Shown: positions 43,908 through 62,800 of the stretch, in pieces
Layout: each line of letters starts with the position of its first letter
Position numbering within the stretch: position 1 is the first letter of the stretch
NCBI GenBank assembly: GCA_013150955.1
Contig: JAADJD010000062.1
Coordinates: forward strand, 91,383 to 155,382
From: Calditrichota bacterium
Lineage (GTDB): Bacteria; Calditrichota; Calditrichia; RBG-13-44-9; J042
Length of the DNA: 64,000 nt
Reading direction: 5' to 3'
The notes under the pieces: model-generated
The model's input: only the letters and a program-made list of their open reading frames with translations
Told to the model about the DNA's origin: nothing
Database searches by the model: none
Made by a program: the position numbers and the translations under genes

Positions 43908-46388
43908 CTATTCCACCTTTCGATAAAACTCGTTGAGGCACCACACCTTCACGTCCGCTGGCCGGGCCGAATTGGTTTTTCTTTTCCCGGTAATCTGCAC
44001 CGAATCCCCCGGAAACAGATCCAGCCAGTTATCGGAAAACTCCACGCCCGGCGCCTCCAGAAAAACGCCGGGAACAAAGGTGTGGGCATTCAATCGGATG
44101 CGAATTTCCTCCCCGGTCTCATCCTCAACCGCCCACTGCAACCCTTCTGGATCCAGGTGCAAATGTTTTAAAGGCAAGTACGTCCAATAATGGCGGGAAA
44201 TTTCCTCTCCCGCATCATCCATCAAGCGCAATAACCAGAGGCGACAGGCCTTTTCGTCATCGGAGATCGGAGTGTGCCGCTCCCACACGGTGAGCACCTG
44301 ACCTGCTGGAAGCTGAACGGCCTGAGTGCCTGACCACACGGGGGCGTTTTCCTTCAAATCAAAAAGAGTCAGCTGAAGTTCGCCATTCCAGACCGTGCTA
44401 TCCAGATTCAGGGCACGGACGCAGATCTTCTCCCCATCGCCTTGAATGACTGCCCGCTGTTTCTGGAAAAACCGCCGCGCGGCAAAATAAGCGGCCTTGG
44501 GTTGCAGGTTGGCATCAATCAACGCCCAGCTGGTTACCGGCCAGCAATCATTAAGTTGCCAGATTAGACTGCCCGACGTCTGTGGCCAGCGAAAACGCCA
44601 GTGATCCACACAGGTTTGCAGGGCCAGTGCCTGGTTCAACCAGGTCAGGTAAAGAAACGCCTCCCAGCGGGTGGAAACAGGCAAATGTGCCACCAGAAAG
44701 CGAAACAATCGTTCGGTGCCTTCTTCCTGCTTGTTATGATGTTCCACCGTGCGGCTCCAGGGATACCGTTCCCCGGGTTCGATTGCTGCTTCCAGGGTTT
44801 CCCGATTCGCCGGCGCCTGAAATCCAAATTCGGTGACGAAAAGACTGTCATCCGCTTCCACGGTGCGATAATCCTGCCAGATGCTCCAGATGTTCCACTG
44901 ATGCCGATTGCCACTGCGGGTATCGTTGGGATCTGCGTCGTCACCAAACGGCGAAGACGGCCAGTAAGCCCGGGTGGGATCCAGTTGCTGGCACAATTCC
45001 GGCAACAATCGATGGAAAATCGAATATCCGGGCATGTCTTCCGGGGAACGTCCGGTACGCTGGTACCAGATCCATTCATTCTCATTATTCCCACACCAGA
45101 TTACCAGACAGGGATGATGCTGCAGGCGGCCAATCTGATAGCGCGCTTCCCGACGCACATTTTCCAGAAAGGCCTGGTGCTCGGGATAATCCCCGCAGGC
45201 AAACATGAAGTCCTGCCACACCATCAATCCCAGGCGATCACACCATTCGTAAAACACATCCGTCTCATATACGCCGCCACCCCACACCCGGAGCATGTTC
45301 ATCCCGGCATCCCGGGCCATCTGCAACAATCGCCGATATTTTTCCGCCGATACGCGGGGTAGAAACGCATCCGCCGGAATCCAGTTGGCGCCCTGAGCAT
45401 ACACCGGGCGACCATTAACCACAAACCGGAATACGGGGTTTCCCTGATCATCCTGACGCTCCAGGGTAACGGTTCGAATGCCGACGAACCAGGTGCGCTC
45501 ATCCACCACCTCTTTTCCGCTGAATAAACGCGCCTCCAGTTTATACCGGAAGGGTTCTCCCATCCCGTTAGGCCACCACAACCTGGGATTCTTTATCTCC
45601 AGCTGGCAGTCCACGGCGTTTGAATTTATCGGCACGCGGGTATTCCAGACGGGTTCATCCACCCCGGGCTCCCGCAAGACGATTTCCAGTTCCCCGGATT
45701 CGTCTGCAAACCACTCCAGCTGAACCTCCACCCGAACGACCGCTTTCCGGGACGATGCCGAAAGGGTGTGAAATCGCAGATGATCCAAGCGACCCGCATG
45801 CAGCCTTTCCAGATACACCGGTTTCCAGATGCCCACCGTGGGCAGGGATGGCCCCCAGTCCCATCCAAAGGCATACTGCGCCTTGCGGATGTAAACCCGC
45901 TCGGCGCTGTTGGGTGCCGAAAGCGGGCCATATTCCGCCACCTGCGAACGGGCATACAACACCGGGGATTCGAAGATAACTTCCAGCACATTCTCCCCCG
46001 ATTTCAATAAATGGGAGACGGGAAATCGGTAGGCCAGGAACATGTTATCGGTGCTGGCTATCTCTACCCCGTTAAGCCGAACGGTGGCAATGGTGTCCAG
46101 TCCCTCAAAAACCAGAAAAATTGGATGTTGCGGATTCAACCACTGAGGATCCACCTGAAACGTTTTGACGTATCGCCAGCGCTGATCATGTACCCACTGC
46201 ACCGCCACCTCGTTGCGGTTTACAAATGGGTCGGGAATGATGCCGGCCGCCAGCAAATCCGTGTGAATGGTTCCTGGAACCTGTGCCGGCAGGCCATCGG
46301 ATGGAAACGCTCGTGCCACTTCCCCGGGAAGGGACTCCATTTCTGGATGGACACGCCAGTCCCCACACAAATCCAGGCGCTCTCGCAT
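43908..46388 (-). CDS. GH2 beta-mannosidase
   Basis: 826 aa, the usual size for bacterial GH2 beta-mannosidases. The sugar-binding, Ig-like and TIM-barrel parts follow in order. FGWDWGPSLPTVGIWKPVYLE (about 174-194) is a family hallmark. The catalytic acid/base is E436 in WCGNNENEW and the nucleophile is E520 in FVTEFGFQ. It removes terminal beta-mannose from oligosaccharides. No signal peptide is seen, so it should act in the cytoplasm on imported sugars. A Shine-Dalgarno (GGGAGGGCATGATCG) fronts ATG 46388. It is the last gene of the beta-mannoside locus and complements the GH130 phosphorylase upstream. Confidence 0.93.
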   Translation of the reverse strand: MRERLDLCGDWRVHPEMESLPGEVARAFPSDGLPAQVPGTIHTDLLAAGIIPDPFVNRNEVAVQWVHDQRWRYVKTFQVDPQWLNPQHPIFLVFEGLDTIATVRLNGVEIASTDNMFLAYRFPVSHLLKSGENVLEVIFESPVLYARSQVAEYGPLSAPNSAERVYIRKAQYAFGWDWGPSLPTVGIWKPVYLERLHAGRLDHLRFHTLSASSRKAVVRVEVQLEWFADESGELEIVLREPGVDEPVWNTRVPINSNAVDCQLEIKNPRLWWPNGMGEPFRYKLEARLFSGKEVVDERTWFVGIRTVTLERQDDQGNPVFRFVVNGRPVYAQGANWIPADAFLPRVSAEKYRRLLQMARDAGMNMLRVWGGGVYETDVFYEWCDRLGLMVWQDFMFACGDYPEHQAFLENVRREARYQIGRLQHHPCLVIWCGNNENEWIWYQRTGRSPEDMPGYSIFHRLLPELCQQLDPTRAYWPSSPFGDDADPNDTRSGNRHQWNIWSIWQDYRTVEADDSLFVTEFGFQAPANRETLEAAIEPGERYPWSRTVEHHNKQEEGTERLFRFLVAHLPVSTRWEAFLYLTWLNQALALQTCVDHWRFRWPQTSGSLIWQLNDCWPVTSWALIDANLQPKAAYFAARRFFQKQRAVIQGDGEKICVRALNLDSTVWNGELQLTLFDLKENAPVWSGTQAVQLPAGQVLTVWERHTPISDDEKACRLWLLRLMDDAGEEISRHYWTYLPLKHLHLDPEGLQWAVEDETGEEIRIRLNAHTFVPGVFLEAPGVEFSDNWLDLFPGDSVQITGKRKTNSARPADVKVWCLNEFYRKVE

Positions 46389-46449: not shown

Positions 46450-49400
46450 TTAGCGGACGAGCATGAGCTTACCATACTGGCTGGCCTGCCCGTATGCAAT
46501 GCGGTAGAAATAAATCCCCGAAGCCACGCTTACCTTCTGGGCATTCTTGCCCTGCCAGCGAAACCGTACGGTTGTCGGTTTCGAGACCGGCAATTGCTGT
46601 CGGTAAATTTCCTGCCCCAGAATGTTGAAAATCTTCAACTCCACAAAGCGGGCCCCGGGCTGGGGATCGTGGATCTGCACCACAAACTCCGTCGTATCGT
46701 TAAACGGATTCGGGAAGGGGCCCCGCAGACTCAGTCGTTTTCCCCGTTGCACTTCCGGGGTTTCGGCATCGGCAATTTTTACCAGATTCTCCACCGTCGC
46801 CATGGCGAAAGCCGTCCCCGCTCCATAAATTTCCTGACCTATCTGTCCAGACTTTTCCCATCCTTCCCGCAAATCTTCCAGGGGGATGTAAAGATCCGGG
46901 TGATTCAGCGAACCGTAGCGGGCCGTATCCGTGTGCACCACTTCCAGCGGGAGATGGGGCGGATAGGTGTAATACAAAACGGCCTGTGACTGCTCCACAA
47001 ACGCCTGAATGAGCTGCTGGACAAATTCTGGAACGATGCCTCCCACCAGCTGGGAATATTCCAGCAGGTACAGCACGGTCTCGTATTGCTCCTTGGGTGT
47101 AATCACCGCACTGTGCTTCATGGGGGAGAGCCCCATAAAGGTCTGGTAGTACTGTCCATATCCGTAATCGCATTCCCACATCCAGGTGAGCCGGAATATG
47201 TTGGCCAACGCCACGTAACTTAACCCGAGGTACCAGGGATCGCCCGTCATGGCATACAGACGCGCACAGGCGGCAGCCCCAATGGCGCTCATGTGAACCT
47301 CGTACATGAGGTCAAATCCTTTGCCTTCAAAATGGGAGATCCCCGCAATAGCTTCTCGCAGGTAGGTGCTATCCCCGGTTAGCTCAAACACGTCCAGCAT
47401 CAAATAGGCATAACCGCCTACCGCATCCGGCTCCGATCCGTAAAGGGGTTGATTGCCGGCGTAAGCAAACTTCACTGGAAATTCGTAATTCACGTTATGG
47501 GCCAGATCGATGACCACTGGAATGGATTGCAACAACAATCGCCGCGCTGTGGAATCCCCCATCTTTGCCAGCGCCGACAGGCCCATGTGCAACTGCATGG
47601 TGTACCAGCTATCGCCCTCGGTAATGCCTTCGTTAGGATAATCGTTCACGATGGTCTGGTACTGCTGGTTGAAAAAGTACGGCAGGGTTGCCGAAAGGGT
47701 CTCATCCAGGTCGGAAAGTTCGCCGAAAAGATTTTCGTAGCGCTTCAGCGGAACCAGGACGTCCAGCTGGGCGATCATTTCCGCACTGTTGAATCGGGTG
47801 ATGTCCACATACGCCCTCAGAAACGGTTTACCATTCAGCTGCACCCAGCAGGAGGGATCTTTTAAATCCCGGGCACTTTTGCGAGCAATCTCCTGCCAGT
47901 TTACCGTCATCACCGGCGGAACGGAAATCTGCCTCAGCACCTGAGCCAGGCCTTCCAGATAGCGCAACATGACGTCATCTTCGCTGCGGGGATGATCTGG
48001 ATAGAGTTTCAAAAAAGCATCGGTCAGGATTAGTGGACTGTTCGGGAAGGTCTGGTTCACGTCCACCGCGCGCAAATACCCAAAATCCCGCCGGCTGGTT
48101 TGCACCACATCGCGAGGTTTGACTCGCAGTCGTTCAAAATACGGATTCAATCGGGAAAAATTTTGAAAATACAGTATGGTTGCCTCCGTTCCTCCCTGAT
48201 CCACCAGAAAGGTGAACCCGGTTGCCAGCGGTACCTGACTGGCAAAAACCCGTGGCGATGCTTCTACCCATTCATCACGTCCCCGATGGTAAAACCGAAA
48301 TTCGCGGGCGGATTGATCGATGGGGTGGGCGGAATGTGCCTGCACCTGCCCCACAAACCGCAGCAAACCCGGTGCATCCCGATAGGCCACCACCTGACCA
48401 ACCATCTGCCCCCACGACCGTTCCGCTTCCAGGCGAACGACGATGGAGTCCTCGTTTTGATTCACGGTCACCGCCTTCAGGCCTTCTGCCGCGGTGAGAT
48501 TCAGGGAAGGTGCATTCAGGATGCGGGTGGCCAGTGCCCGCTCGTTACCATTCAGCGGGGAAATCAAAATATAGTCGTCGTAGCGACCGGCCTCATAAAA
48601 AACCTCGAATCCTCCGCTGATCAGGCGAAACCCGTTCTGCCACAGGGAATCCAGGTAAACCGCAGAGGCTGCGGCCAGGGTAGTAACCGTGGTTGTCCAG
48701 ACGGCCTGTCCGTCCACGCCATCGGGATCGGTTATGCGGGCCTGCACTTCGTAAGTGGTATTTTCCTGCAGTCCGTAAATGGTTTTACGAAACAGACTAT
48801 CCTCCCGGCTCATCACCCCCACCGGGATCCAGTCTCCATCTCCCCGCAAACGGTACCACAGCTCCACCCGCCCGTTCCGATTGGCGTCGCCCCGGTACTG
48901 CAGTTCACAGGTCACCCGGTGAATACCAGCCGCCCGGACGGTAAACGCCAGCGAAACCAGTCTGGGGGTTTGCAAACGCACACCGGTAAAGCGCTGGGGA
49001 TTGGGCCCCACTACGCCATCGTTGTCGGTGGCACGGATTTCCACTTCGTACGTCTGATCGGCTTGCAAACCACTCAACACCCCCTGGAAACGAAAATCCC
49101 CGCGCTGCAGGGATTGCTCTGCTGACCAGTCTCCATTCTCCGGCCGGTAGCGCAGAAACGCCTGACCATTCCGGTTGTCATCCCCCCAGAACGGCAGGGT
49201 AATCCGCACCTCGCTGACGGTTGCTTCCAGTTGGGCTGTCTCCAGCACCAATCGATCCTCAGCTCGGGTGGTCAATTTCAGCACCGGGCGAAAATATTCC
49301 GGGAAATATTCCCGGGAGGCAACATCCAGAATGCCGGTACCGGCAGCCGGAACGGGCTCCCGAACCACCAGCCCCATATTGCTATCCGGGTGGACCAGCC

Positions 49401-49992
49401 AGAATTGCACCAGCGGGGTCAGATTCCACTGCAACCACTGGCCGGTGGCCATGTCCGGCGTAACCACCAGGCTATCTACCGGGACGCCCTGACGGTCTGC
49501 GGGAATGCCATCGGCTCCCGGCTGATCCCATAACAGCGATCCCTGGCGGGCCGCCAGCCAGCTGCACTCTCCCGTCCGGGCCGGCCGGCCATCGTAGCCA
49601 CCCGGATCGTCTCCCTGACCTTCTCCCCATGGCTTCTTCAAGCGGTACACCGCCAGGGTTTTTGCCACCGATTGTTCGGTGCGTCGTTGCACCAGGTATA
49701 ATTGTAATTCGGCCCGGTCAATTTCCAGCGACCGGGGAAGGTGGGACAGATCGAAGCGCAACAGGGCAAATTTGGCATCCGCCATGGCCCCGTTGCCGGT
49801 CACCTCCAGAAAGGTTTCCGCACCCGTGTTGTTTTCCGGCTTATCGGCCAGAATGTGGGCATCCTGTGCCCCCTGGTAGCCGTTTACCCCGCCCTGCAAA
49901 ATCACCGTTTGCTGGGCAAACAAACCACTGTTGATCAGAACTCCCCCCAATACCAGCCACAAAACCCCAAAGATGCCGTGCTTCATCGTCAT
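46450..49992 (-). CDS. Large secreted protein with DNRLRE-like, FnIII-like and sorting domains
   Basis: 1180 aa. A signal peptide ends near LFAQ (about 26). A DNRLRE/CBM-like domain follows (about 28-230: LLRFDLSHLPRSLEIDRAELQLYLVQ), typical of surface glycan-active proteins. Two beta-sandwich repeats (about 245-440) share ENTTYEVQARITDPDGV-like and QTYEVEIRATDNDGV-like segments. Residues about 690-1060 are alpha-helical, with the appearance of an alpha/alpha-toroid. The C-terminus ends in FPNPFNDTTEFVVQI and GIYFYRIAYGQASQYGKLMLVR, a type IX-like sorting domain. It probably stays at the cell surface to bind or cut mannoside-containing polymers. The catalytic family is not assigned. Confidence 0.82.
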   Translation of the reverse strand: MTMKHGIFGVLWLVLGGVLINSGLFAQQTVILQGGVNGYQGAQDAHILADKPENNTGAETFLEVTGNGAMADAKFALLRFDLSHLPRSLEIDRAELQLYLVQRRTEQSVAKTLAVYRLKKPWGEGQGDDPGGYDGRPARTGECSWLAARQGSLLWDQPGADGIPADRQGVPVDSLVVTPDMATGQWLQWNLTPLVQFWLVHPDSNMGLVVREPVPAAGTGILDVASREYFPEYFRPVLKLTTRAEDRLVLETAQLEATVSEVRITLPFWGDDNRNGQAFLRYRPENGDWSAEQSLQRGDFRFQGVLSGLQADQTYEVEIRATDNDGVVGPNPQRFTGVRLQTPRLVSLAFTVRAAGIHRVTCELQYRGDANRNGRVELWYRLRGDGDWIPVGVMSREDSLFRKTIYGLQENTTYEVQARITDPDGVDGQAVWTTTVTTLAAASAVYLDSLWQNGFRLISGGFEVFYEAGRYDDYILISPLNGNERALATRILNAPSLNLTAAEGLKAVTVNQNEDSIVVRLEAERSWGQMVGQVVAYRDAPGLLRFVGQVQAHSAHPIDQSAREFRFYHRGRDEWVEASPRVFASQVPLATGFTFLVDQGGTEATILYFQNFSRLNPYFERLRVKPRDVVQTSRRDFGYLRAVDVNQTFPNSPLILTDAFLKLYPDHPRSEDDVMLRYLEGLAQVLRQISVPPVMTVNWQEIARKSARDLKDPSCWVQLNGKPFLRAYVDITRFNSAEMIAQLDVLVPLKRYENLFGELSDLDETLSATLPYFFNQQYQTIVNDYPNEGITEGDSWYTMQLHMGLSALAKMGDSTARRLLLQSIPVVIDLAHNVNYEFPVKFAYAGNQPLYGSEPDAVGGYAYLMLDVFELTGDSTYLREAIAGISHFEGKGFDLMYEVHMSAIGAAACARLYAMTGDPWYLGLSYVALANIFRLTWMWECDYGYGQYYQTFMGLSPMKHSAVITPKEQYETVLYLLEYSQLVGGIVPEFVQQLIQAFVEQSQAVLYYTYPPHLPLEVVHTDTARYGSLNHPDLYIPLEDLREGWEKSGQIGQEIYGAGTAFAMATVENLVKIADAETPEVQRGKRLSLRGPFPNPFNDTTEFVVQIHDPQPGARFVELKIFNILGQEIYRQQLPVSKPTTVRFRWQGKNAQKVSVASGIYFYRIAYGQASQYGKLMLVR

Positions 49993-50055: not shown

Positions 50056-50988
50056 TTATCCCACCCGGTGCTTCCACAGCGCGTCGATCAACCGGGATAC
50101 TTTACCCACCGCCAGACCCACCACCTTATCCGCCCCTCCGTAGAATACCAGCAGATCGTCATCAAAAATGGCCGTTCCCTGAGGAAAAACCACGTTATTC
50201 ACATCGCCAATTTTTTCGTAGTCGCGTTCCGGTTCCAGAATGGGATACGGCAGGCGGGCAAGTACCTTTAAGGGATTGCGTTCATCCAGCAGAACGGCTC
50301 CCGCCCGGTAAGTCAGCTGCTTATCCACCCCATGGTAAATCAGGATCCAACCGGCATCGGTTAAAAACGGTGGCGGGCCGGCTCCGATTTTTTCGGCTTC
50401 CCAGATCTGCTCCCCGTACAATACCGTATGGTCATCCAGATTGGCCAGGTGACGTTCCCAGTACTCCGGCTCGGGTTCCAGAAAATGATCCAGATCGTCA
50501 AACAGGGCGATCTGAATGTTGGGCTCAATGCGGTGCATGAAGGCCACCTTGCCATCCACCCGACCGGGAAACAGCATGGCATCTTTGTCCCAGGTATCCG
50601 GCCCAACCTGACCAATTTTATGGTATTCCCGAAAATCTTTTGTTTCCGCCATGATGATGCGTACCTCTTCCCCATCGAATCCGGAATAAAACACAAAGTA
50701 GCGATCCTCGAAGGGAACGATACGTGGATCCTCACATCCGCGGGATTCCTGAGGAAGGGTACGCGAAATGACCGGTTCGTCATGGCGTTCCAGCACCTCG
50801 CCATGGCGATTCAACCGGGCATAGCCGATGGTGGAATAGTTATCCCCCTCCACGGCTCGATAGAGCATGTGGATATCTTCGTTACCGCGAACGGTGCCCG
50901 GATTAAACGCTGCTCGCGATTCCCAGGCATTTTCCTCTCGCGGCCCCAGGATGATCCCGTTTACTCTTTCCAGCTGAAACTGACCCAT
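50056..50988 (-). CDS. GH130 family beta-mannoside phosphorylase
   Basis: 310 aa from ATG 50988, preferred because AAAGGAGATGGGCAG lies before it. The frame to 51015 would add nine residues without a ribosome site. The five-bladed propeller sequence has GH130 features: AAFNPGTVRGNEDIHMLYRAVEG, SRGCEDPRIVPFEDRYFVFYSGFDGEE, WDKDAMLFPG, GAGPPPFLTDAGWILIYHGVD and WPIL-like YPILEPERDYEKIGDVNNVVFPQG. GH130 enzymes cleave beta-1,4- or beta-1,2-mannosides with phosphate to give mannose-1-phosphate. Its position beside a GH2 beta-mannosidase fits a cytoplasmic mannoside route. The exact glycan is undetermined. Confidence 0.93.
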   Translation of the reverse strand: MGQFQLERVNGIILGPREENAWESRAAFNPGTVRGNEDIHMLYRAVEGDNYSTIGYARLNRHGEVLERHDEPVISRTLPQESRGCEDPRIVPFEDRYFVFYSGFDGEEVRIIMAETKDFREYHKIGQVGPDTWDKDAMLFPGRVDGKVAFMHRIEPNIQIALFDDLDHFLEPEPEYWERHLANLDDHTVLYGEQIWEAEKIGAGPPPFLTDAGWILIYHGVDKQLTYRAGAVLLDERNPLKVLARLPYPILEPERDYEKIGDVNNVVFPQGTAIFDDDLLVFYGGADKVVGLAVGKVSRLIDALWKHRVG

Positions 50989-51024
50989 CTGCCCATCTCC
51001 TTTTTTACATTCCACGATTTACTT

Positions 51025-52458
51025 TTAATTCAATGTTTTCTTGAACGTTGCTCTGGAAGCGTCATTCAACTGCCGGCGGAATCGGTTCATTTCGGCCCGC
51101 GCAATGGGATTCCGTTCAATGGCCTGCAGAATCATCAATGCCTCGATGGTCGACTCGGCACCGGCATTGCGATTGACCCGAACCGATCCTGCGGGCGATT
51201 TACCATCCCCGGTCATGGAAGGTTCCCGATACAGCCCATCGAAGCAGCGTCCTGTCCGGGCATCGTACATTACGGCTCCGGCGGGATTGTTCCCGAAGAG
51301 CCAGGCGGCCAGCTGCCCGGCCTGACGTGCGTAGGCCTCCTGCCCGGTGATCCGATACGCCATCAAACTGGCCATGACCATGGGACGAATATCGTAGGCA
51401 ATTTGCGGGAACGCCTCCCGGCGCACCACCTGAACCCCCGCCGCGCTTCCCCGAAACTGCAGCGCGTGCAGGAACCGGTTTTCCAGCAAATAGTGGTAAA
51501 AATAGCGGACTTCCACCAGGGCGCGACGCACCCATTCTTCTTTCTGCAGGAAAGATCCCAGGGTCAACAGTGCATGGGACTGGCTATTGCCCCAGGCATG
51601 CCAGAGATTTCGCCAGCTCCGAAAGGCTCCAAAGGGAAACCGAAGGGAATCGCCTGTTTGCATGATAAGGATGCCCCTGGCCAATCGTTCGGCCAGGGCC
51701 ACCAGATGTCCCCGAAACTCTGGGGAGGCCTGTGGTAAATATTGATCCAGTGCCAGCAACATCACCGCTGCCTGATCGGCACCGGTTTCTACCGGCAGGT
51801 AGGCCGGACAAACCAGTCCATCATAAACCACCGTATCTGGATACGTTGATAAAACGCTATCGTAAAGGGAAAAACTCAATTCCAGGGCATGCTCTGCCTG
51901 TAACGCCAGGGGAACATTTTTGGCGCGTAGCAGGGGCAGGGCGCGTGCCAGCGCCCACTGGGCGCGCCAGGTCCACCAATCCGGACGATTCGTACTGGTC
52001 TCTCCATCACGATTGATGGAATAATCCTCCTGAATAAAATTGTAAAATGTGCCCTCCGGGCTTTGCATGTGAAGTAAAAAGCGCACCAGCAGTTCCACCC
52101 GGCGCCAGGAATCCATCCGCCCGTGGCGCTCGTAATCTTCCAGGTACACCAGAATGGCCCGCGCGGCATCATCCACACAGGCAATGCCTTCTCCCGGCGC
52201 AGCAATGGGCCGGTAATCCGGATATTCCGCGTAAATCCGCACAATGCCCATTTCCGAATCACCCGTGGGTACGACCTGGAAGAGGGCATTGAGGTGAGAC
52301 AGGTTTACCAGCGGCAAGGGGCGACTGGCACACCGCCAGCCTATCACCAGCAACGGCAACACCAGCACCAGTAGTCCCCCTCCAACCTTCCACCAACAGA
52401 ATCCGGAGGTGTGCCCGTTTTTCCGGTTCATTGGACGATTGTTTCCCTTTCTCCTCAC
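51025..52458 (-). CDS. Predicted alpha/alpha-toroid, membrane-anchored or exported carbohydrate-active protein
   Basis: 477 aa. GTG 52458 is chosen because AAGGAG lies within the preceding gene's stop region, 9 bp upstream. The N-terminal part is basic, then GGGLLVLVLPLLVIGW (about 27-42) is a TM or signal segment followed by RC, perhaps a lipobox-like Cys. The mature chain is helical and Trp/Tyr-rich: GIACVDDAARAILVYLEDYERHG, DWWTWRAQWALARALPLL, LWHAWGNSQSHALLTLG. This resembles six-hairpin glycosidases and related proteins without telling the substrate. It is 6 bp after the MalG-type permease gene and 36 bp before the GH130 gene, so it belongs to the locus. Confidence 0.75.
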   Translation of the reverse strand: MRRKGNNRPMNRKNGHTSGFCWWKVGGGLLVLVLPLLVIGWRCASRPLPLVNLSHLNALFQVVPTGDSEMGIVRIYAEYPDYRPIAAPGEGIACVDDAARAILVYLEDYERHGRMDSWRRVELLVRFLLHMQSPEGTFYNFIQEDYSINRDGETSTNRPDWWTWRAQWALARALPLLRAKNVPLALQAEHALELSFSLYDSVLSTYPDTVVYDGLVCPAYLPVETGADQAAVMLLALDQYLPQASPEFRGHLVALAERLARGILIMQTGDSLRFPFGAFRSWRNLWHAWGNSQSHALLTLGSFLQKEEWVRRALVEVRYFYHYLLENRFLHALQFRGSAAGVQVVRREAFPQIAYDIRPMVMASLMAYRITGQEAYARQAGQLAAWLFGNNPAGAVMYDARTGRCFDGLYREPSMTGDGKSPAGSVRVNRNAGAESTIEALMILQAIERNPIARAEMNRFRRQLNDASRATFKKTLN

Positions 52459-53476: not shown

Positions 53477-54337
53477 TCAAATCGTGACCTCCCGTTCCAC
53501 CAATTTTTTCTGGATGACCACCACCAGCATGATCAACAGGGCAAAAAAGAAGCCCAGGGTAGCGGCATATCCCATGTGGTAAAAAAAGAATCCTTCCTTA
53601 TATATATAAAGCACAGCCGAAAGGGTACGATTGAGCGGCCCGCCTCCGGTTAAAATGTAGGGTTCAATAAACAGGGAAAACCCACCAATGGTGGACAGAA
53701 CCACCACCAGGAAGATGGTGGGATTGATCATGGGCAGGGTAATGTGGCGAAATTTTTGCCAGGCGGTAGCGCCTTCCAGATCGGCAGCCTCGTACAATTG
53801 CGCCGGCACGCTCTGCAGGCCGACCAGGAACAACACAATGTACAACCCCACGTTTTTCCAGGTGGCCATCAGGGCGATGGACGGCATGGCCAGATCGGGA
53901 TCCACCAGCCAACCCACTTTCCCCAGACCGATGGCCACCAGCAGCCGGTTCAATAATCCAGAATCGTAACTGAAAAGCCGCTGCCAGAGGATGGTCACCA
54001 CCACCCCGGAAACAATCACCGGCAAAAAATAGGCTGCGCGGAAAAATCCCCGCAAACGCAATTGGCGATTGAGCAATTCCGCAAAAAACAGGGCCACGAC
54101 AATCTGCAAGGGAATATGGATCAGCAGGAAAATCAGCGTGTTGCCCAGTGCCCGGAAGAACAATGCATCGTTGGCCAGCCGGTGGAAGTTATGCAATCCC
54201 ACAAACTCCATGGGTGCAATGATATTCCAGCGGTGAAACACCAGCACCAGCGAAAAACCCACCGGAAATGCAACGAACAATAGAAAATGCACCACGTATG
54301 GCAACACGAATCCGTAGCCGGTGTAACGTCGGGTCAT
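53477..54337 (-). CDS. Carbohydrate ABC transporter permease, MalF type
   Basis: 286 aa from ATG 54337, which has AGGTGGAAGGT upstream. ATG 54355 is an alternative without one. Helices and the EAA loop (EAADLEGATAWQKFRHITLPMINPT) identify a sugar-transport permease of the COG1175 type. It forms the inner-membrane channel with the MalG-type protein. The gap of 196 bp to the MalG-type gene is longer than elsewhere in this run. It holds no obvious gene or terminator. Confidence 0.94.
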   Translation of the reverse strand: MTRRYTGYGFVLPYVVHFLLFVAFPVGFSLVLVFHRWNIIAPMEFVGLHNFHRLANDALFFRALGNTLIFLLIHIPLQIVVALFFAELLNRQLRLRGFFRAAYFLPVIVSGVVVTILWQRLFSYDSGLLNRLLVAIGLGKVGWLVDPDLAMPSIALMATWKNVGLYIVLFLVGLQSVPAQLYEAADLEGATAWQKFRHITLPMINPTIFLVVVLSTIGGFSLFIEPYILTGGGPLNRTLSAVLYIYKEGFFFYHMGYAATLGFFFALLIMLVVVIQKKLVEREVTI

Positions 54338-54419
54338 ACCTTCCACCTGTTTCATGCTTTTGTCATGCCGGTCTCAACCGGTTTTACAGAAAAACGATTC
54401 CCCATGCAGATCGCCGGGA

Positions 54420-55763
54420 TCACAGCATCAGCCTGACTCGGCGGGCGGCTTCTTCCAGCGCCTTATCCACCGGAACCACTCCATAGATGACACTGGCCTC
54501 GAACTGCTGGGAAATGGCGTCGAACACCTCTTTCAATACCGGGCAGACATCGGTGCCCCGAACATACTGTGCCTGCCGGGCAAATGGCTTCATCCGGGGA
54601 TTTTTTTCAAAATACGCCTGAAAGTAGGGATCCTGAAACAGATTCCGTCGCCGGGGCAGCTGATCGGTGGTCTCCAGAAACAGGCGATCGTTTTCCTTGC
54701 TAATCATGAAGCGCACAAATTTCCAGGCCAGTCGCGGATTGGGACTGGTTCCAAAAATGACAATGTTTTTAGGATCCCCATAGGTGTAAACCGGGCCCTG
54801 GTGATCATCGGGAACCGGCACGGGTGCAAATCGATATTCAAAACCTTCCGGTTTAAATTTTTCCAGATACCGCACTACCCAGGGGCCGGTGAACTGGGTG
54901 GCCACCTGTCCCGCAATAAACGGATCCTGCCGGCCTTCCATGGGATCGCGGGGTAAATGGCCGCCCGCATACAGGCGACGGAGAAATTGAAACACTTCTC
55001 GGGCGTAACGATTGTTAAACACGACCCGATTGCCCGTTACCAGTGGGGCACCCTCACTGGCTGCCAGATACAGGGGATAAAAATCGAAGAGCCGTTTCCA
55101 CCAGGTGACATTCACATTCAGGTAGCCGATCCACCGATCCACATAGCCATCGCCATCGGTGTCGGCTTTCATTTTTTCTGCCGCCTGTAAATATTCGCTG
55201 TAGGTGGCCGGGGGCCGATCCAGGCCGATCGCCCGGAAAAGCCCCACATTGTACACCATCATGATGGGGTTAATCTTCCAGGGAACCTGGTAAATGTGGC
55301 CATCTTCCGAAGTAGCTTCCCGCACCACGGCCGAATCGCAGCGCTGGTAAAGAAATTCCAGAAATCCCGGAAGCGTATCCAGCGGCACCAGCACCCCTGC
55401 GCGGGCAAAGGCTTCCACATCCCCCTGCCACATGTTGGAATACACATCGGGCGTGGTTTTGCCCACCACCGCGGCCAGAATGACTTCCTCGCTGGACTGT
55501 CCCTCTGGAACGGGCTGATAACGCACCGGCGTGTCCGGATGCCGACGATTCCATTCGGCCACTACCAGGCGGGCAAATTCAATCTCGTAAGGATTGTTCG
55601 ATGACCAGTAGATGATTTCGTTGGGATTGCGCTGACGGGTGGATGTGCAGGCCAATCCTGAGAGGATCAACGCGCTGCAGACCGCCAGGTAAACCACCTG
55701 ACGACAACGCCAAACCATCCGTGCCCGTCTTACCGATCGACCATCAAAAAAATGCATCACCAT
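54420..55763 (-). CDS. Extracellular solute-binding lipoprotein of a sugar ABC importer
   Basis: 447 aa. Lipobox LSGLAC (about 34-39) follows a basic N-terminus. The chain IIYWSSNNPYEIEFARLVVAEWNRRHPDTPVRYQPVPEG and later GKTTPDVYSNMWQGDVEAFARAGVLVPLDTL are typical of COG1653-type sugar-binding proteins, and IGTSPNPRLAWKFVRFMIS is another common mark. It captures the sugar in the periplasm for the two permeases downstream. A Shine-Dalgarno (GAGGAAAGTGG) fronts ATG 55763. Its presence next to a TonB receptor suggests transfer of oligosaccharides from the outer membrane route. Confidence 0.94.
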   Translation of the reverse strand: MVMHFFDGRSVRRARMVWRCRQVVYLAVCSALILSGLACTSTRQRNPNEIIYWSSNNPYEIEFARLVVAEWNRRHPDTPVRYQPVPEGQSSEEVILAAVVGKTTPDVYSNMWQGDVEAFARAGVLVPLDTLPGFLEFLYQRCDSAVVREATSEDGHIYQVPWKINPIMMVYNVGLFRAIGLDRPPATYSEYLQAAEKMKADTDGDGYVDRWIGYLNVNVTWWKRLFDFYPLYLAASEGAPLVTGNRVVFNNRYAREVFQFLRRLYAGGHLPRDPMEGRQDPFIAGQVATQFTGPWVVRYLEKFKPEGFEYRFAPVPVPDDHQGPVYTYGDPKNIVIFGTSPNPRLAWKFVRFMISKENDRLFLETTDQLPRRRNLFQDPYFQAYFEKNPRMKPFARQAQYVRGTDVCPVLKEVFDAISQQFEASVIYGVVPVDKALEEAARRVRLML

Positions 55764-55839: not shown

Positions 55840-56874
55840 TTAAAAAGCCACGTTAATGGAAAACCGTTGAACATTTTGCAGCCGACCAAAGTCGGCGTAG
55901 GCGTAATCCAGCTTCACCTGAAAATTCCCCAGAAACCGAACATGAAAACCGGCCCCCAGGGTAAAGCCTTCCTCCCCATCCCGCAGGAACAGGTTGCGGA
56001 AACCGCCCCGAAGGAAAAACTGTTCCCGGAAGGCATATTCCATCCCGATGTTCATGCTTTCGGTATTGTCGATGGGATGGAGCGCATCCACTGCCACGGT
56101 GAGGCGCTGTTGTTCGGTCTCCCAGGGTTCAATGGCCAGGCCGGCCTGAAAAATCAGCGGCAACGGCCACTGGTCGGTCTTCAACTCCGCAAAAATTCGA
56201 TCATTGTTTCCCAGTTTGTAGGGATCGATATCGTGGTAAACCAACAGATTGTCCCCGCTCATGCGCATGTCGGTACCAAAATTGGTTAATGCAGCGCCGA
56301 TGCGCAATCCCTTCAACCCGGTTCGAAACAGGGTACCCACATCGATGGCAAATCCCTGAGCGGTCTCTTTCCAGATGCGCTGGTAGATGTACTTGGCGGT
56401 CATTCCAAAGGAAAAGCGATCGGTCAGGTTAAATCCGTAACTGAGGGCCAACGCCAGATCCGAAGCCGAAAAGCGCTCCCCGGTCCCTTCGGGCTCTTCC
56501 ACCGTGCGCACCAGCATTTCTCCCATACTCAGGCTGGTCAGGCTGGCTCCCAGGGAACCGTACACTCCCAGGGGAATGACCACGCCGGCATAATCGAAGC
56601 GAATATCAGCCAGCCAGTTGGTATGGACGAACAGCACCTCCGGTCGTTTGAGCTGGGCAATGCCGGCCACATTCCAGTACAGCGCACTGGCATCGTTAGC
56701 GGTGGCCACAAATGCTCCCCCCATGCCAATGGCACGGGCACCCACACCGATCTCCAGAAACGGTGCCGCCGTTGTTCCCACATTGGACACGTTCTTCACA
56801 AATTGTGCCTGAACGGAAAACACCAGTGCCCCAATCACGAAAAGAATACCCCTGATGAAGCTGGATGCTTTCAT
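55840..56874 (-). CDS. PorV/PorQ-like outer-membrane protein
   Basis: ATG 56874 (MKASSFIRGILFVIGALVFSVQAQ) is chosen. The frame is open to 57291, but that part lies inside the upstream gene, and GGTGG is placed 6 bp before this ATG. The product, 344 aa, has a signal peptide and the pattern GVGARAIGMGGAFVATANDASALYWNVAGIAQLKRPEV, typical of UPF0164/PorV-type barrels in FCB bacteria. These aid export of type IX cargo or work with TonB-receptor partner proteins. It sits directly behind the large secreted partner of the TonB receptor. Confidence 0.9.
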   Translation of the reverse strand: MKASSFIRGILFVIGALVFSVQAQFVKNVSNVGTTAAPFLEIGVGARAIGMGGAFVATANDASALYWNVAGIAQLKRPEVLFVHTNWLADIRFDYAGVVIPLGVYGSLGASLTSLSMGEMLVRTVEEPEGTGERFSASDLALALSYGFNLTDRFSFGMTAKYIYQRIWKETAQGFAIDVGTLFRTGLKGLRIGAALTNFGTDMRMSGDNLLVYHDIDPYKLGNNDRIFAELKTDQWPLPLIFQAGLAIEPWETEQQRLTVAVDALHPIDNTESMNIGMEYAFREQFFLRGGFRNLFLRDGEEGFTLGAGFHVRFLGNFQVKLDYAYADFGRLQNVQRFSINVAF

Positions 56875-56887
56875 GACCATCCACCGC

Positions 56888-59800
56888 TTATTTGATGATT
56901 GCAAATTTTCCGATCTTTTCACCAATTCCCGGTGCTTCCACATGATAGATGTACACCCCGTAAGCAATTTCCTGATTGTCCTTGGACAACAGATTCCAGG
57001 CTGCCTGACCATTGTTGACATCGCTGTTGTGTTCAATGACGTCCACCAGATATCCCCGAATGGTGTAAATGCGAATGGTGCACTTCGGGGGCAAATTGAT
57101 GAAGTAGATGCGGCGTTCTCCGCGGCCAAACCGGAATGGACTTCTTGGCTCCCAGGATGCGGCCACCACGTACGGATTGGGCACCACGGCAATCCGATCC
57201 AGATCCGATTTTGCCTTTTCTCGATCAAATCGGCTTCCCCGAAGTTTAAAGGTGAACCGGTCGCCCGTGCGGAACGGCTTGAAAGTGGCAATCCGGAATA
57301 CGTCCCCCGGCTGGGGATACCGCGGCTTTCCTCGGGTGGGATCCACTTCCAGCACCAATCGCCAGGTGGTACTGTATTTCAAAATCGATTCGGGGTTTTC
57401 TTCCACGATGAGAATCTGCTCCAGCGAATCGATGCTCTGATCCTCGGTTACCGGCGTCAGGGTACTGTCTCGGTACTGATCGTAATATTCCCGGAAGATA
57501 AATTTTGCCGGCCGATCTTCGGTGAGATTGTAAACCGAAAATTTGGTGGGAACTGCCGGGAATCCCAGGAAACTGTACGAGGTATCGATGATCTGATCGG
57601 AAAACCGAATCTCATAATCCGCCGGGTACTTGGTGTTCAGGATGGCAAAGCGATCATCCAGGCTCACATCCCACTTCAGATTGCTATCGCCAATCAACCA
57701 GCCGGTGTTTAGCGGATCCACATCCACCTCCGTGTGATTGGTAATTTTCACCACAAATCCATCCACAATTGGCGAAACCGTTTCCTCGTGAACCACGGAA
57801 GTATCCAGTTTCAGCACCTTCTGGCCGTCGGTGATGTCGTAAATCATGTAAAAGGGCGTTCCGCGGTCGTGCAAGACCGTGGTATCGGCAAACTCCACCT
57901 GATAGGTGTGCCCATCGCGGATGGAATCCGGAATGATAAACTGAACCTCAAAATCGCCCGTACCGGCAGTTTCCCGGATGATTTCCCCGTCCAGCTCGGG
58001 TGGCACATAGCCGGCTGCCGGGGCGGTGGGGGTCACCACCGCGGTATTGATATCCACCTGCACATTGCCGGCAATATCCACTTTGATCACACTGGGACAT
58101 TCCGAGGGGGCAATCCCTTCCAGCGTGCCGATCGCGCTGGTATCCACAAATCCCCGGTCATAAGAAACCACCGCGTAATAATAGGTTTGGCCGTTCTGCA
58201 CATCCGTGTCCACGTACACGTGGCGCAGACCGGTATCTTCGCCCAGGTCAAATTTCACTCCCTGCACATCGATGGGATGCAATCCCTTGATGCCATTTTT
58301 CAGATCGAACTGGGCAATGGGTTTCCGGAAGGTGAGTCGGCCATAGGCATCGGTGATCAGCCGCCGTTCCAGGAATTCCGGCTCCGTGCTGCGGTAAATG
58401 CGGTAGCCCTCAAAATCATATTCCTGCAGGAAGGGATCGTAGGACTGTTCCGCCCGCGTGTCCCAGATCAGGGTGACCTTTTTATCTCCGGGAATGGCAA
58501 TCAGGCGGGGCTTGTCCGGTGGTTTCGCAAAGCGATAATCGGCATTGTAGATTTGCTGGACCGTCTTCTTTGTCCGGATGAGATCGTCCCGGTCTTCGGC
58601 AAAGATCAGGGCCATGGAATAATTTTCAGTCTGTCCCGCTTTTAAGGGGAACGATCCCGAAGAGAAGAACATACCCAGATTTGCGGTAACCTGACCTGCC
58701 GAAGGCGGCGGTGCGGATTTAAAGACCTTCCAGTTCTGTTCCTCGTTCCACAGTTCGTACGTATGCACCGGGAAGATGCGGAACCCGGTTAAACCAATCT
58801 GATCCGACTCATCCTTATCCGTCTTATCGAAGTTGGGTTCCCCATCGGTGGGGATGCCATCGGCCTCTCCTTCATCCGGGCCGGTGTAATTGGGATCCAG
58901 CGGGCCAATGCCATCGGCGCCCACGTCGTCGTTGAGCGGTTCGCCGGGATCCCATTGCCCGTTTTCATTCACATCCTCGTAGGGCCGCCAGTCCTGATCT
59001 TCGTCGCCAGACCAGTGCGGCCGGGGCTCCCGTCCGTAAAACTGGATGAATTTCTCCACATCATCCACGCCATACGGATACGTGTCCAGCCACACACCGG
59101 GGCCGCTATCCCGCCGTTCGTCCACCAATCCGTCGTCGTCGTTGTCCACATTGTCATCCTTAATTCCCGGACTTTCCAGAAAGGCAAATCCCGCAACCCC
59201 CACGGGGAACCAGCGTCCGGGCGTGCCGTAGCCGTCGTAATCCCACGCCCAGGCAATATCCAGGGTTAAATCGTATTCGCCGGTATCGTCGGAGGAATCA
59301 TCGGTGCCACCCACGCCCCAGTCGATATAAAATGCATAGTAGACCGAATCGTAATTGGTCTTGCCCTCGTTGGTAATGAAGTAAACGGCAAAGATGACAT
59401 CCTCGGCCAGAACCTGCGACCACTGGAAATAGCGTGCAGCCACTTCCAGTCCCAGTCCCCGGCGCGTGGTGTCGGTGGGATCGGGATAAAAATCCCATTC
59501 TTCGTCGGGATCATCGTCAAACACGAAATAGGTTTCCAGATCGGCATTGCGCACGCCTTTTCCGAAAAAGCCGTTCCAGAAGACCACATCATCCACCAGG
59601 CCATTCTCATCGTTATCGATGCCATCGCGCACTTCACCGGGATTCACCCAATCGGGTTGATCGGGCCACACATCCGGCCAGGTGCTGGGGTCGTCGCTCA
59701 TCGCGGGCTCGGTGGACTTGGGGTAAAAATAGCCCGGCAAGGGTGCCCATCCCCACAATTCGCCCTTGGGGCCGGTGTCCACAAATTCCCGGTACTGGGT

Positions 59801-60109
59801 TTCCATGGGGTGAATCACATTTCCATTGTTGTCGATGGCACGGGCCTGCACAATCAGCGCCACGCCGTCCACATACTGATGCCCCGTCCCCTTGGGCCAT
59901 TCCCCGGAGGGTGAATCGGGCCAGTGGGCAATTTCGCCCCAGTTAATAAAAATGGTACGCACCAGATTCCCATCCATAATGCCCTGCCGGCGCCAGATGG
60001 GATCGCCCACGTTGGGATCCGGCGTGCGCTGGGCCCACAGGGCCATCAACGCTCCCGATAAAAGCAAGAGGTGAATCCACAACCTTATAGTGGTTCGACG
60101 TGTCCTCAT
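56888..60109 (-). CDS. Large secreted partner protein of the TonB receptor, with Ca-binding motifs
   Basis: 1073 aa. A signal peptide (about 9-26) is followed by a long chain in which acidic, Ca-binding-like loops recur: DGIDNDENGLVDD, DDNVDNDDDGLVDE and DVNENGQWDPGEPLNDD. The middle has Fn3-like strands (KKVTLIWDTRAEQSYDPFLQEYDFEGYRIYRST), and the C-terminus, GVYIYHVEAPGIGEKIGKFAIIK, looks like a FlgD/T9SS-type domain. It lies 12 bp after the TonB receptor stop and directly before the PorV-like gene, the order in which Calditrichota-like genomes put a receptor and its surface partner. A SusD-like glycan-capture role is inferred; SusD homology itself is not visible. Confidence 0.8.
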   Translation of the reverse strand: MRTRRTTIRLWIHLLLLSGALMALWAQRTPDPNVGDPIWRRQGIMDGNLVRTIFINWGEIAHWPDSPSGEWPKGTGHQYVDGVALIVQARAIDNNGNVIHPMETQYREFVDTGPKGELWGWAPLPGYFYPKSTEPAMSDDPSTWPDVWPDQPDWVNPGEVRDGIDNDENGLVDDVVFWNGFFGKGVRNADLETYFVFDDDPDEEWDFYPDPTDTTRRGLGLEVAARYFQWSQVLAEDVIFAVYFITNEGKTNYDSVYYAFYIDWGVGGTDDSSDDTGEYDLTLDIAWAWDYDGYGTPGRWFPVGVAGFAFLESPGIKDDNVDNDDDGLVDERRDSGPGVWLDTYPYGVDDVEKFIQFYGREPRPHWSGDEDQDWRPYEDVNENGQWDPGEPLNDDVGADGIGPLDPNYTGPDEGEADGIPTDGEPNFDKTDKDESDQIGLTGFRIFPVHTYELWNEEQNWKVFKSAPPPSAGQVTANLGMFFSSGSFPLKAGQTENYSMALIFAEDRDDLIRTKKTVQQIYNADYRFAKPPDKPRLIAIPGDKKVTLIWDTRAEQSYDPFLQEYDFEGYRIYRSTEPEFLERRLITDAYGRLTFRKPIAQFDLKNGIKGLHPIDVQGVKFDLGEDTGLRHVYVDTDVQNGQTYYYAVVSYDRGFVDTSAIGTLEGIAPSECPSVIKVDIAGNVQVDINTAVVTPTAPAAGYVPPELDGEIIRETAGTGDFEVQFIIPDSIRDGHTYQVEFADTTVLHDRGTPFYMIYDITDGQKVLKLDTSVVHEETVSPIVDGFVVKITNHTEVDVDPLNTGWLIGDSNLKWDVSLDDRFAILNTKYPADYEIRFSDQIIDTSYSFLGFPAVPTKFSVYNLTEDRPAKFIFREYYDQYRDSTLTPVTEDQSIDSLEQILIVEENPESILKYSTTWRLVLEVDPTRGKPRYPQPGDVFRIATFKPFRTGDRFTFKLRGSRFDREKAKSDLDRIAVVPNPYVVAASWEPRSPFRFGRGERRIYFINLPPKCTIRIYTIRGYLVDVIEHNSDVNNGQAAWNLLSKDNQEIAYGVYIYHVEAPGIGEKIGKFAIIK

Positions 60110-60121
60110 AACCCACCCACG

Positions 60122-62800
60122 TTAAAATTCAATTTCAAATCCCAATTGAACCTGTCGGGGTTCCTTGTAAAAGTCCGGTCGGATGTAATAATCCTGCAGC
60201 TTGTTCAATCCTCGCGGTCGCAATCCCCCCACATACAGGGGTGCCAGCGTGTATCCCGCCCGACCCGTATCGGTAAACACATTGACCTCATTCAAACGAT
60301 CGAACAGATTGAAAACCCGTAAAAAGAAGGAAAACTTGAATCCAAACAACTGAATGTCCTTGTAGGCATACACATCCACATAGTAGATGTCCGGCTTGCG
60401 CCCGCTATTTTCCACCGCCGTTTGCACGTTTTGAAAGGTGGGGGTATACGGAAAGCCGGTACCATAGCGAGCCACGATGCTGACCGCCAGGTTGCCCGGC
60501 GTGCCCAGGGTAATGGTCGCATTCAACTGATGGCGGCGATCCCAGTCTAACGGAACCAGCTGTTTGACCGTCTCCTTGGGGGGATCGGTTTGCTGATCCA
60601 GATAAGCCGTATTGGGATCCGAGGCATTTCCCTTGGCGATCTGGTAAGTATAGTCAATGGCCGCGTAAATGCCGTCAGAATAGCGCTTTTCAAATTCCAG
60701 GGTCACCCCGCGCACGTAACCGTAGTCGCGATTGATATACCGCGCATACTTGATGCCCTCCAGCGTGTACAGCACTTCCGTCCCCAGCAGGTTCCGAATA
60801 TCTTTAAAGAACGCGGTTACCGAAAGGCCGTAGTCCCGCCCCAGCTGCTGCTGCAACCCGATTTCATAGATGACCGTTTTCTGCGGCTTGAGCTCCGCAT
60901 TCCCCACCGTATTCAACAGGCTCTGTGGGGGTGGGGAAGGGGTACTTTGCAGCGGATAAATATCGAATTCTGGATTGGTATACAGGTAAAAGAAGGTTGG
61001 TATTTGAAAGAAATGGCCATAGGAAACATGGATGACCCCGGTTTCGGAAATGGGATAGGCAATGCCAAAACGCGGGCTGACCTGATAACTGGGTTTAGCC
61101 TTCGTCCGTGGCGATTTTCCGGGATTGCTGAAATCGGTGGGCACTTCGCCATCGGGATCAAAATAATCGAATCGCACCCCGGCATTGACCACCATGTAGG
61201 TGAATTCCATCTTGTCCTGCAGGTAGGCCGAAAATTCAATCGGATAATGCGTATACTTGTTGTTGTTGTACTGAGTGATCGGGGGGATCCGTTCGGGCAA
61301 TTCGGGAACCACTTCAAACTCGTGCATCCACAACCGGTGGCGGCGATATTCCACTCCCCCCTTCAACTGATGCATCGGGGTGACCTGGCTGGTAATGTCC
61401 CATTTCACCAGATGGGTCGTGGTACTGCGTTTAAAATGCCACATCTGTTGCCCGCCACTCAAATAGGCGTTGGCTCCGGTATCCTGCAACCGCTGGGCGC
61501 TGACATAACGCGGATCGAAGGGATCTTCATAAACATACTGCTTGTAGCGGGTGTAAAAATACGCGTAGCGCAAATCCATGAAGGTGCGCTCATTGAACAC
61601 ATGGTTCCAGGCCACCGTTTGATGGATGCTGGTTCGAAAACGCCGGTAATCGCCATCGGGATTCAGGCGGAACCGGTGGTCATATTCCCGCCACTGCTTT
61701 TCCTGGTAAATGGTTTCCAGGTTGATTTTGTCCAGCGTGCCCAGGCGATAGGTCAGCTTGGCATTCAGCGTCAACCGTTTGCGATTGTTCATCGGGACGG
61801 CCGGCGCTTCGGCAATTAATCGTTCCGCCAGATCTTCAGAAAAATTATACTGCCTCCCGCGACTTTCCACAATCCAGTCTTCCGGTTTCTCCGCCGTAAA
61901 GTCCGAATGATCCGTGGGTAGAAATACCCGCTTTCCGTAAATGTACCCTTCCGTTTCGTACAGGCGGCCGCTGGCAAAAAAGGTCAGATTTTTAAATATG
62001 GGGCCACTCACGTTGAACTGATAATTGCGCACGGGATTCAATGCATCGATGTTCCAGAAAATATCCTTATGCCGACTGATGTAATCGCCAAAATAGACGG
62101 TGGCATTTCCGGTAAAAACATTGGTGCCTTCTTTGGTAACAATGTTGACCACTCCCGACATGGCCTGACCGTACTCCGCGTTAAAGGTGCCGCTGATGAC
62201 GTTCAGCTCCTGAATGGCGTTGTTTTCCACTTCCACAGCAAATTCCCCGGAGTACACATCATTCACCGGGATTCCGTCAATCATGTACACCACCTCCCCA
62301 ATGCGTCCGCCCCGGAAGTGGCCCTCGATTACCCCGGCCTGCAGGTTCACCACATCGGTGAAATTTTCCACCGGCAGGCTTTCGATCACATCGCTGCCAA
62401 TGTTGGTTTCGGTGGAGGTAAGATCCCGCCGTACCAGAGGACGCTCGGCCACCACTTCAATCGTCTCCCCCAGTTCCACCGCCGTTTCCCGCATCTGAAA
62501 GTCGATCCGGGTGGTCTTGTCCACATTCACCCGCACATTACTGACCACCACATCCTGATACCCGATCATGGAGGCCCGCAAGGTGTATACCCCCGGGGGT
62601 ATCCCGATAATGATGTAGGTGCCATCCACATCCGTGGCGGCGCCAAAGGTGGTCCCTTCAACAATGATGTTGACTCCGGGCAGGGGCTCACCGGTCTGAG
62701 CATCCACGGCGGCGCCCACGATTTTACCGGTCGTGCCTGCCCACAACACCACGCTGCTAAACAATAACACATTGACGATGCGACAAACCCATTTGCCCAT
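60122..62800 (-). CDS. TonB-dependent receptor with carboxypeptidase-regulatory-like N-domain
   Basis: 892 aa. Signal peptide (about 1-22), then a CarboxypepD_reg-like domain (about 25-110: GKIVGAAVDAQTGEPLPGVNIIVEGTTFGAATDVDGTYIIIGIPPGVYTL), a plug (about 120-235: VVNLQAGVIEGHFRGGRIGEVVYMIDGIPVNDVYSGEF) and a 22-strand-type barrel ending in QVQLGFEIEF with a terminal Phe. This resembles SusC-like importers. It moves large ligands, probably mannoside oligosaccharides in view of its neighbours, across the outer membrane. A Shine-Dalgarno (GGGAGGAAAAT) fronts ATG 62800. It heads the run of ten genes. Confidence 0.95.
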   Translation of the reverse strand: MGKWVCRIVNVLLFSSVVLWAGTTGKIVGAAVDAQTGEPLPGVNIIVEGTTFGAATDVDGTYIIIGIPPGVYTLRASMIGYQDVVVSNVRVNVDKTTRIDFQMRETAVELGETIEVVAERPLVRRDLTSTETNIGSDVIESLPVENFTDVVNLQAGVIEGHFRGGRIGEVVYMIDGIPVNDVYSGEFAVEVENNAIQELNVISGTFNAEYGQAMSGVVNIVTKEGTNVFTGNATVYFGDYISRHKDIFWNIDALNPVRNYQFNVSGPIFKNLTFFASGRLYETEGYIYGKRVFLPTDHSDFTAEKPEDWIVESRGRQYNFSEDLAERLIAEAPAVPMNNRKRLTLNAKLTYRLGTLDKINLETIYQEKQWREYDHRFRLNPDGDYRRFRTSIHQTVAWNHVFNERTFMDLRYAYFYTRYKQYVYEDPFDPRYVSAQRLQDTGANAYLSGGQQMWHFKRSTTTHLVKWDITSQVTPMHQLKGGVEYRRHRLWMHEFEVVPELPERIPPITQYNNNKYTHYPIEFSAYLQDKMEFTYMVVNAGVRFDYFDPDGEVPTDFSNPGKSPRTKAKPSYQVSPRFGIAYPISETGVIHVSYGHFFQIPTFFYLYTNPEFDIYPLQSTPSPPPQSLLNTVGNAELKPQKTVIYEIGLQQQLGRDYGLSVTAFFKDIRNLLGTEVLYTLEGIKYARYINRDYGYVRGVTLEFEKRYSDGIYAAIDYTYQIAKGNASDPNTAYLDQQTDPPKETVKQLVPLDWDRRHQLNATITLGTPGNLAVSIVARYGTGFPYTPTFQNVQTAVENSGRKPDIYYVDVYAYKDIQLFGFKFSFFLRVFNLFDRLNEVNVFTDTGRAGYTLAPLYVGGLRPRGLNKLQDYYIRPDFYKEPRQVQLGFEIEF

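Follow-up and report, generated by a model that had tools for sequence, protein, structure and literature searches.

The uptake of vitamin B12 in Bacteroides by BtuB-BtuG together with BtuFCD combines a TonB transporter, a non-SusD beta lid and an ABC importer (PMC10404256). In Thermoanaerobacter, the beta-1,2-mannoside cluster Teth514_1785-1796 holds a solute-binding protein (SBP), two permeases and GH130 phosphorylases (PMC4264767). In the type IX secretion system (T9SS), cargo with a type-B C-terminal domain (CTD) uses a dedicated PorP/SprF-like barrel as its surface anchor (PMC9143113, PMC12618676); for type-A CTDs PorV is the shuttle, and one PorV is reported to be common to them (PMC12618676).

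Here we describe a ten-gene operon of a Calditrichota MAG, located in the window, which is the whole stretch of 64,000 nucleotides that was analysed. We consider it reasonably probable that the operon, following the whole mechanism set out below, serves to take up beta-mannosides across two membranes and to break them down. A literature search, chiefly of open-access papers, found no description of such a TonB, PorV and ABC arrangement in Calditrichota, Marinimicrobia or Ignavibacteria.

Organization of the locus

An ORF check recovered all ten genes of the one-direction run that the sequence-only reading had placed at 43908-62800, all of them on the minus strand, and Pfam and NCBIfam scans agree with its identities for the GH2, the GH130, the two permeases, the SBP, the PorV-like barrel and the TonB receptor. 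The features are as follows.

63276..64000, minus strand: upstream surface protein with a T9SS tail, truncated where the contig stops (the ORF runs past 64000)
63226..63257, minus strand: probable terminator separating the operon from its upstream neighbour (14-nt inverted repeat, then a T-rich run)
60122..62800, minus strand: TonB-dependent receptor, 892 aa, operon gene 1 (Pfam PF00593, PF13715, PF07715)
56888..60109, minus strand: 1073-aa putative lid protein, no Pfam/NCBIfam family (predicted model, profile comparison)
55840..56880, minus strand: PorV/PorQ-family outer-membrane barrel, 346 aa with corrected start (Pfam/NCBIfam scans)
54420..55763, minus strand: sugar-binding lipoprotein of a CUT1 ABC importer (SBP_bac_1; best solved relative Lmo0859)
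53477..54355, minus strand: ABC permease, MalF/UgpA type (BPD_transp_1)
52465..53310, minus strand: ABC permease, MalG/UgpE type (BPD_transp_1)
51025..52458, minus strand: 477-aa exported (alpha/alpha)6-toroid protein (YPO2471 family, PDB 7tem, E 7.5e-130)
50056..51015, minus strand: GH130 (PF04041; solved phosphorylase relatives)
46450..49992, minus strand: 1180-aa surface protein (family scans, predicted model)
43908..46388, minus strand: GH2 beta-mannosidase without signal peptide (612 bits to 5n6u)
43537..43565, minus strand: terminator-like hairpin downstream of GH2, 12-bp stem, strongest on the operon strand

The gaps between the genes, which had been described as short, are mostly 6-76 bp, but 166 bp separates the two permeases. 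The hairpins on both sides and the short gaps make one transcription unit plausible, and all ten genes would then lie on one transcript. The listed ORF of the PorV-family barrel starts at 57291 and overlaps the 1073-aa gene; the likelier start is at ~56880, which gives 346 aa with a signal-peptide-like N terminus. Window and contig (C20, 155382) end together, inside the T9SS-tailed gene upstream (63276 to >64000), which leaves the locus truncated. In related loci the upstream slot is taken by a protein with CBM_4_9 and a CTD, with a LacI regulator before the CBM_4_9/CTD gene.

The SBP_bac_1 binding protein and the two MalF/MalG-type permeases identify the importer as CUT1. There is no MalK-type ATPase gene in the operon, and the single OB_MalK ATPase of the source genome, on contig C15, would power the importer. 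SprA (the T9SS translocon) and eight TonB_C matches are also present in the source genome, so that together with this ATPase the outside parts needed by the mechanism exist.

Elsewhere in the window, the convergent gap past GH2 contains AT-rich nested inverted repeats (43195-43403, arms of 57-58 nt, ~75% complementary). A BPL_N-like (class I amidotransferase-type) protein at 41187-43160 on the plus strand carries a T9SS C-terminal tail, so that a fold usually met in the cytosol is apparently secreted here. At 17984-21247 on the minus strand, FG-GAP/ASPIC-UnbV repeats are fused to GAF and histidine-kinase domains in a 1087-aa protein; with its beta-propeller-like repeats this is an unusual sensor kinase, and its gene is followed by that of a sigma-54 response regulator (16536-17984, minus strand).

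The receptor and the putative 1073-aa lid protein

The TonB receptor has a CarboxypepD_reg domain at its N terminus, followed by plug and barrel (TonB_dep_Rec) in the Pfam scan. Its NCBIfam score against the SusC/RagA subfamily model TIGR04056 is 53 bits, with a cut-off of 368, and covers the N-terminal part only. Within the operon there is no Pfam or NCBIfam match to the SusD family; the SusD matches of the genome sit elsewhere, and its three SusC/SusD pairs have no adjoining lid, importer or above-cut-off PorV-family gene. Since neither SusD nor the SusC subfamily is detected, the operon is not a SusCD PUL. This suggests that one genome holds two parallel systems, SusCD without an ABC importer and the present arrangement with one.

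The 1073-aa protein has no family match in the Pfam and NCBIfam scans. It consists of a signal peptide, a super-beta-sandwich (residues ~28-528), Fn3/Ig-like beta domains and a putative T9SS-type CTD that ends in GKFAIIK. The AlphaFold2 model (pLDDT 82.6) is nearly all beta. In model comparison, residues ~28-528 resemble the super-beta-sandwich found at the N terminus of GH15, GH94 and GH116 enzymes and of cyclic glucan synthase, with Z of 16-20 (best 20.3) and rmsd of 3-4 over ~250 residues, and the predicted model is without the catalytic alpha/alpha barrel of such enzymes. No beta-propeller is found among the structural matches listed, of which the best are super-beta-sandwich domains. SusD membership is ruled out by the absent family match and the all-beta model; the protein is neither SusD nor a lipoprotein, and the predicted fold agrees with the earlier proposal of a SusD analogue without the SusD fold. 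We refer to it as the lid, a role that it would play on the receptor. Foldseek whole-chain matches of the modelled proteins (Fn3 chains, receptors, macroglobulins) were uninformative, with TM-scores of ~0.05-0.2 on the query.

The lid CTD matches type-A T9SS CTDs in profile-profile comparison with a probability of 98, without a direct match to TIGR04183 or PF18962, and the sole match of the lid profile among PDB sequences is the CTD of PorU (E 0.014). In an alignment of 41 lid sequences from several phyla, most are 52-93% identical to the window protein, and paralogues and divergent relatives fall as low as 32%. The tail G-K-F-[AV]-[IV]-I-K is shared by 61 of the 85 lid-family rows and by none of the 109 other CTD proteins of the loci, and a PorV gene comes next after 49 of the 85 and after 2 of the 109, counts that are not independent because the 85 rows are homologous to one another. 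The tail subtype is also carried by the strongly divergent lid paralogues L019-L021. Further lid relatives lie at about six places in the source genome, most of them beside PorV-family genes.

The PorV-family barrel

The barrel belongs to the PorV/PorQ family, scoring 243.5 bits against NF033709 (cut-off 90); against the T9SS PorV equivalog NF033710 it reaches 95.6 bits, below the cut-off of 250. A type-A-like CTD with a PorV-family barrel of its own is at variance with the single common PorV reported for type-A CTDs (PMC12618676). The lid would be held at the surface by this barrel, which could be a shuttle only, or a transporter by itself.

The PorV family belongs among the FadL-type barrels, and it could be supposed from this that the barrel is a FadL-like channel, with the TonB receptor and lid merely capturing the substrate or signalling. 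We regard this as quite improbable, given that the private CTD subtype encoded beside the barrel suggests protein binding and that known PorV proteins carry out T9SS cargo transfer (PMC12618676).

Other periplasmic proteins accompany the same genes in some loci. A double PPIC-type rotamase gene is found in or beside them in the maltodextrin locus on contig C17 (L016:2154-3839). In two Fidelibacterota loci (L058:11293-12657 and L045:7900-9276), ~455-aa lipoproteins with a similar-looking start and no Pfam match are encoded between lid and PorV. Such proteins are possibly dedicated chaperones.

Linkage of the trio to the importer

The TonB receptor, the 1073-family protein and the PorV-family barrel are hereafter called the trio. 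The source genome has just two MalG-like permeases, and each is beside a trio. The second of these loci, on contig C17, carries alpha-amylases, a second solute-binding protein and a TrmB regulator, and is a maltodextrin version. The linkage was examined further by a search with the permease alone, in which loci were counted as well-flanked when at least 7.5 kb was available on both sides of the permease. In 36 Calditrichota genomes, 57 places were found, 55 of them outside the source genome; trio parts are present in 18 of the 21 well-flanked loci among these 55. For Fidelibacterota, an even sample of 100 genomes was used and 40 loci were fetched, and 18 of 24 well-flanked loci contain trio parts (L143, whose permease had been missed by the ORF caller, is counted among the 24). 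The trio parts share the strand of the importer in nearly all of the permease-first loci, and about a fifth of the well-flanked importer loci in both phyla are trio-less. Among the 48 loci found via the 1073-aa protein, 28 have trio and importer, and many of the others are cut contigs. By our own estimate, the lid places, about six or seven in number, with neighbourhoods of 20 kb each make up ~3-4% of the 4.07-Mb genome.

Chance neighbourhood was ruled out by the permease-first scans. The two phylum scans and the lid loci bear out the coupling of a TonB trio with an ABC importer that the sequence-only reading had claimed. What does not hold is a combination restricted to mannosides, as the same trio and importer occur with alpha-amylases on C17 and with varied glycoside hydrolases elsewhere (GH32 in L031). 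The latter, a trio-importer locus of a Calditrichaceae relative (L031:14081-16781), oddly couples a mannoside-type enzyme, GH130, with a fructoside-type one, GH32. A comparable gene content is present in G001, a genome of the same class in a single 4.98-Mb contig, where one locus (L085) holds lid, PorV, SBP, permeases, two GH130, the toroid protein and GH2.

The importers were assigned to three classes by score. Lids whose importers are of one class group together in the lid tree, with 18 label changes against a mean of 29.9 after shuffling; none of 200 shuffles was as low. This co-segregation holds also for paralogues inside one genome. It bears directly on the possibility that the operon consists of two independent modules, in which the ABC/GH130/toroid cassette is what matters and the trio imports something else, e.g. 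a cofactor or peptide. Gram-positive ABC and GH130 clusters do exist without TonB, as in Thermoanaerobacter (PMC4264767), and several importer loci in Fidelibacterota are trio-less. Against it, the linkage recurs in both permease-first scans and across three importer types, and lid and importer types co-segregate, so we hold such independence to be rather unlikely.

The trio could alternatively be a T9SS sorting or attachment module, i.e. a PorV shuttle with its cargo, which is incidental in cargo-rich sugar operons while the sugars enter via other porins. PorV is the shuttle of type-A CTDs (PMC12618676), and the best Foldseek match of the lid is the T9SS attachment protein PorZ, at a very low TM-score. 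Moreover, trios without nearby sugar genes occur in the source genome itself (L017, L019, L020 and L021, with TonB, a lid relative and PorV). These make it clear that the trio is not sugar-specific, and the trio gate probably serves other nutrients too. However, a TonB receptor, which T9SS shuttles can do without, regularly forms part of the trio, the lid tree follows the importer type, and 107 of the 109 other CTD proteins of the loci have no PorV neighbour. A mere sorting module is thus unlikely, although it is the least unlikely of the alternatives weighed here.

Enzymes and the likely substrate

The closest solved relatives of the GH130 are a 1,2-beta-oligomannan phosphorylase (9fj8, 199 bits) and a beta-1,2-mannobiose phosphorylase (7fip, 177 bits), whereas the remaining solved GH130 enzymes, beta-1,4 ones included, score ~103-117 bits. 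The protein matches PF04041 and retains the DPR, K-D-A and H-R motifs of the solved phosphorylases. It reaches 245 bits against NF052550, the beta-1,2-mannobiose phosphorylase equivalog with a cut-off of 450, which is the nearest branch. These relatives point no less to beta-1,2- than to beta-1,4-mannosides, and the beta-1,2 linkage of the substrate is to be taken as a lead, not a result. The GH2 aligns with the solved beta-mannosidase 5n6u at 612 bits over residues 34-800, almost its full length. The solved relatives of both enzymes fit the cytosolic beta-mannoside breakdown that had been assigned to them.

The 1180-aa protein has a DNRLRE-type N terminus and, in a model of moderate confidence (pLDDT 66.6), Fn3 domains and an (alpha/alpha) toroid; its C terminus is an ordinary type-A T9SS tail. 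The toroid of this predicted model resembles GH76 mannanases and epimerases (Z 24.2, rmsd 3.4, 318 residues). With the GH130, the GH2 and this GH76-like model, beta-mannosides are the likely substrate.

The 477-aa protein has no match in the Pfam and NCBIfam scans. Its homology to 7tem and its conserved residues, D96, D97, N140, W162 and R165 being invariant in the homologue alignment, make it probably a carbohydrate enzyme. The earlier description as a toroid lipoprotein is upheld by 7tem as far as the toroid is concerned; the lipobox is good in most homologues but poor in the window copy (GWRC). A literature search, chiefly of open-access papers, found no described function for YPO2471, and a plasmid search for the toroid protein gave three weak, uninformative records.

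Among cultured Calditrichota, growth on glucomannan and on starch has been reported for C. abyssi (PMC5317091), which matches the two locus types, mannoside and maltodextrin; the portions searched of that genome paper describe no such locus.

Proposed mechanism

Outside the cell, the T9SS-exported 1180-aa toroid protein and the upstream CTD protein would bind or trim the glycan. The T9SS would also export the lid, an enzyme-derived super-beta-sandwich without catalytic barrel, whose CTD would stay with the dedicated neighbouring PorV-family barrel at the outer membrane. In a presumed complex with the TonB receptor, the lid would capture oligomannosides in a SusD-like manner and, by its movement, let lid and receptor import them. 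In the periplasm, the binding lipoprotein would take the oligosaccharide, and the 477-aa toroid protein may trim it. The two permeases would then import it across the inner membrane, driven by the single MalK-type ATPase encoded elsewhere in the genome. In the cytosol, GH130 phosphorolysis would yield mannose-1-phosphate, and GH2 would remove terminal beta-mannose. The linkage, the folds and the enzymes all fit the two-membrane route of the sequence-only reading, in which the part of the trio in import is what we infer from gene linkage.

This mechanism would give an explicit answer to how FCB members outside Bacteroidota pass oligosaccharides over two membranes. It would give the probable role of lid to a 1073-aa family that neither Pfam nor NCBIfam models, and would tie type IX secretion to nutrient import via a dedicated PorV-type barrel. 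Because the pairing of gate and pump recurs across little-studied phyla, it seems to represent a general alternative to SusC/SusD sugar uptake in gut bacteria. More tentatively, and with somewhat more doubt than confidence, we propose that the trio constitutes a separate class of nutrient gate alongside SusCD, with a barrel-anchored lid, forming the outer-membrane half of CUT1 importers across six phyla (Calditrichota, KSB1, Kryptoniota, Ignavibacteriota, Fidelibacterota and Electryoneota). If so, the lid would be anchored through a private CTD subtype to a PorV-type barrel of its own instead of by a lipid.

Comparison with known systems

The SusC/SusD PULs of Bacteroidota resemble the operon in having a CarboxypepD_reg-extended TonB transporter, an adjacent surface partner and glycoside hydrolases in one operon. 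In contrast to SusD, the partner is all-beta by model, is a non-lipoprotein and bears a putative T9SS-type CTD, and the operon adds a PorV-family barrel and a CUT1 importer. The T9SS type-B cargo and its PorP are alike in that the cargo gene adjoins its own barrel, but the operon has a type-A-like CTD with a PorV-family barrel. As for the 477-aa toroid protein, YPO2471 (PDB 7tem) is a clear homologue.

The inner half of the system is most like Teth514_1785-1796 of Thermoanaerobacter, with an SBP, two permeases and GH130, and the window GH130 is closest to that type; that cluster, however, is Gram-positive, has no outer-membrane part and contains its ATPases. In the BtuBG system, likewise, an inner-membrane ABC importer goes with a TonB transporter whose surface lid is all-beta and not SusD. 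BtuG is a beta-propeller lipoprotein, whereas the lid here is by prediction a super-beta-sandwich T9SS cargo with a PorV-family barrel, and the substrate class differs. By analogy, the operon can be regarded as a variation on the theme of TonB transporter, lid and ABC importer, for which BtuBG is the precedent.
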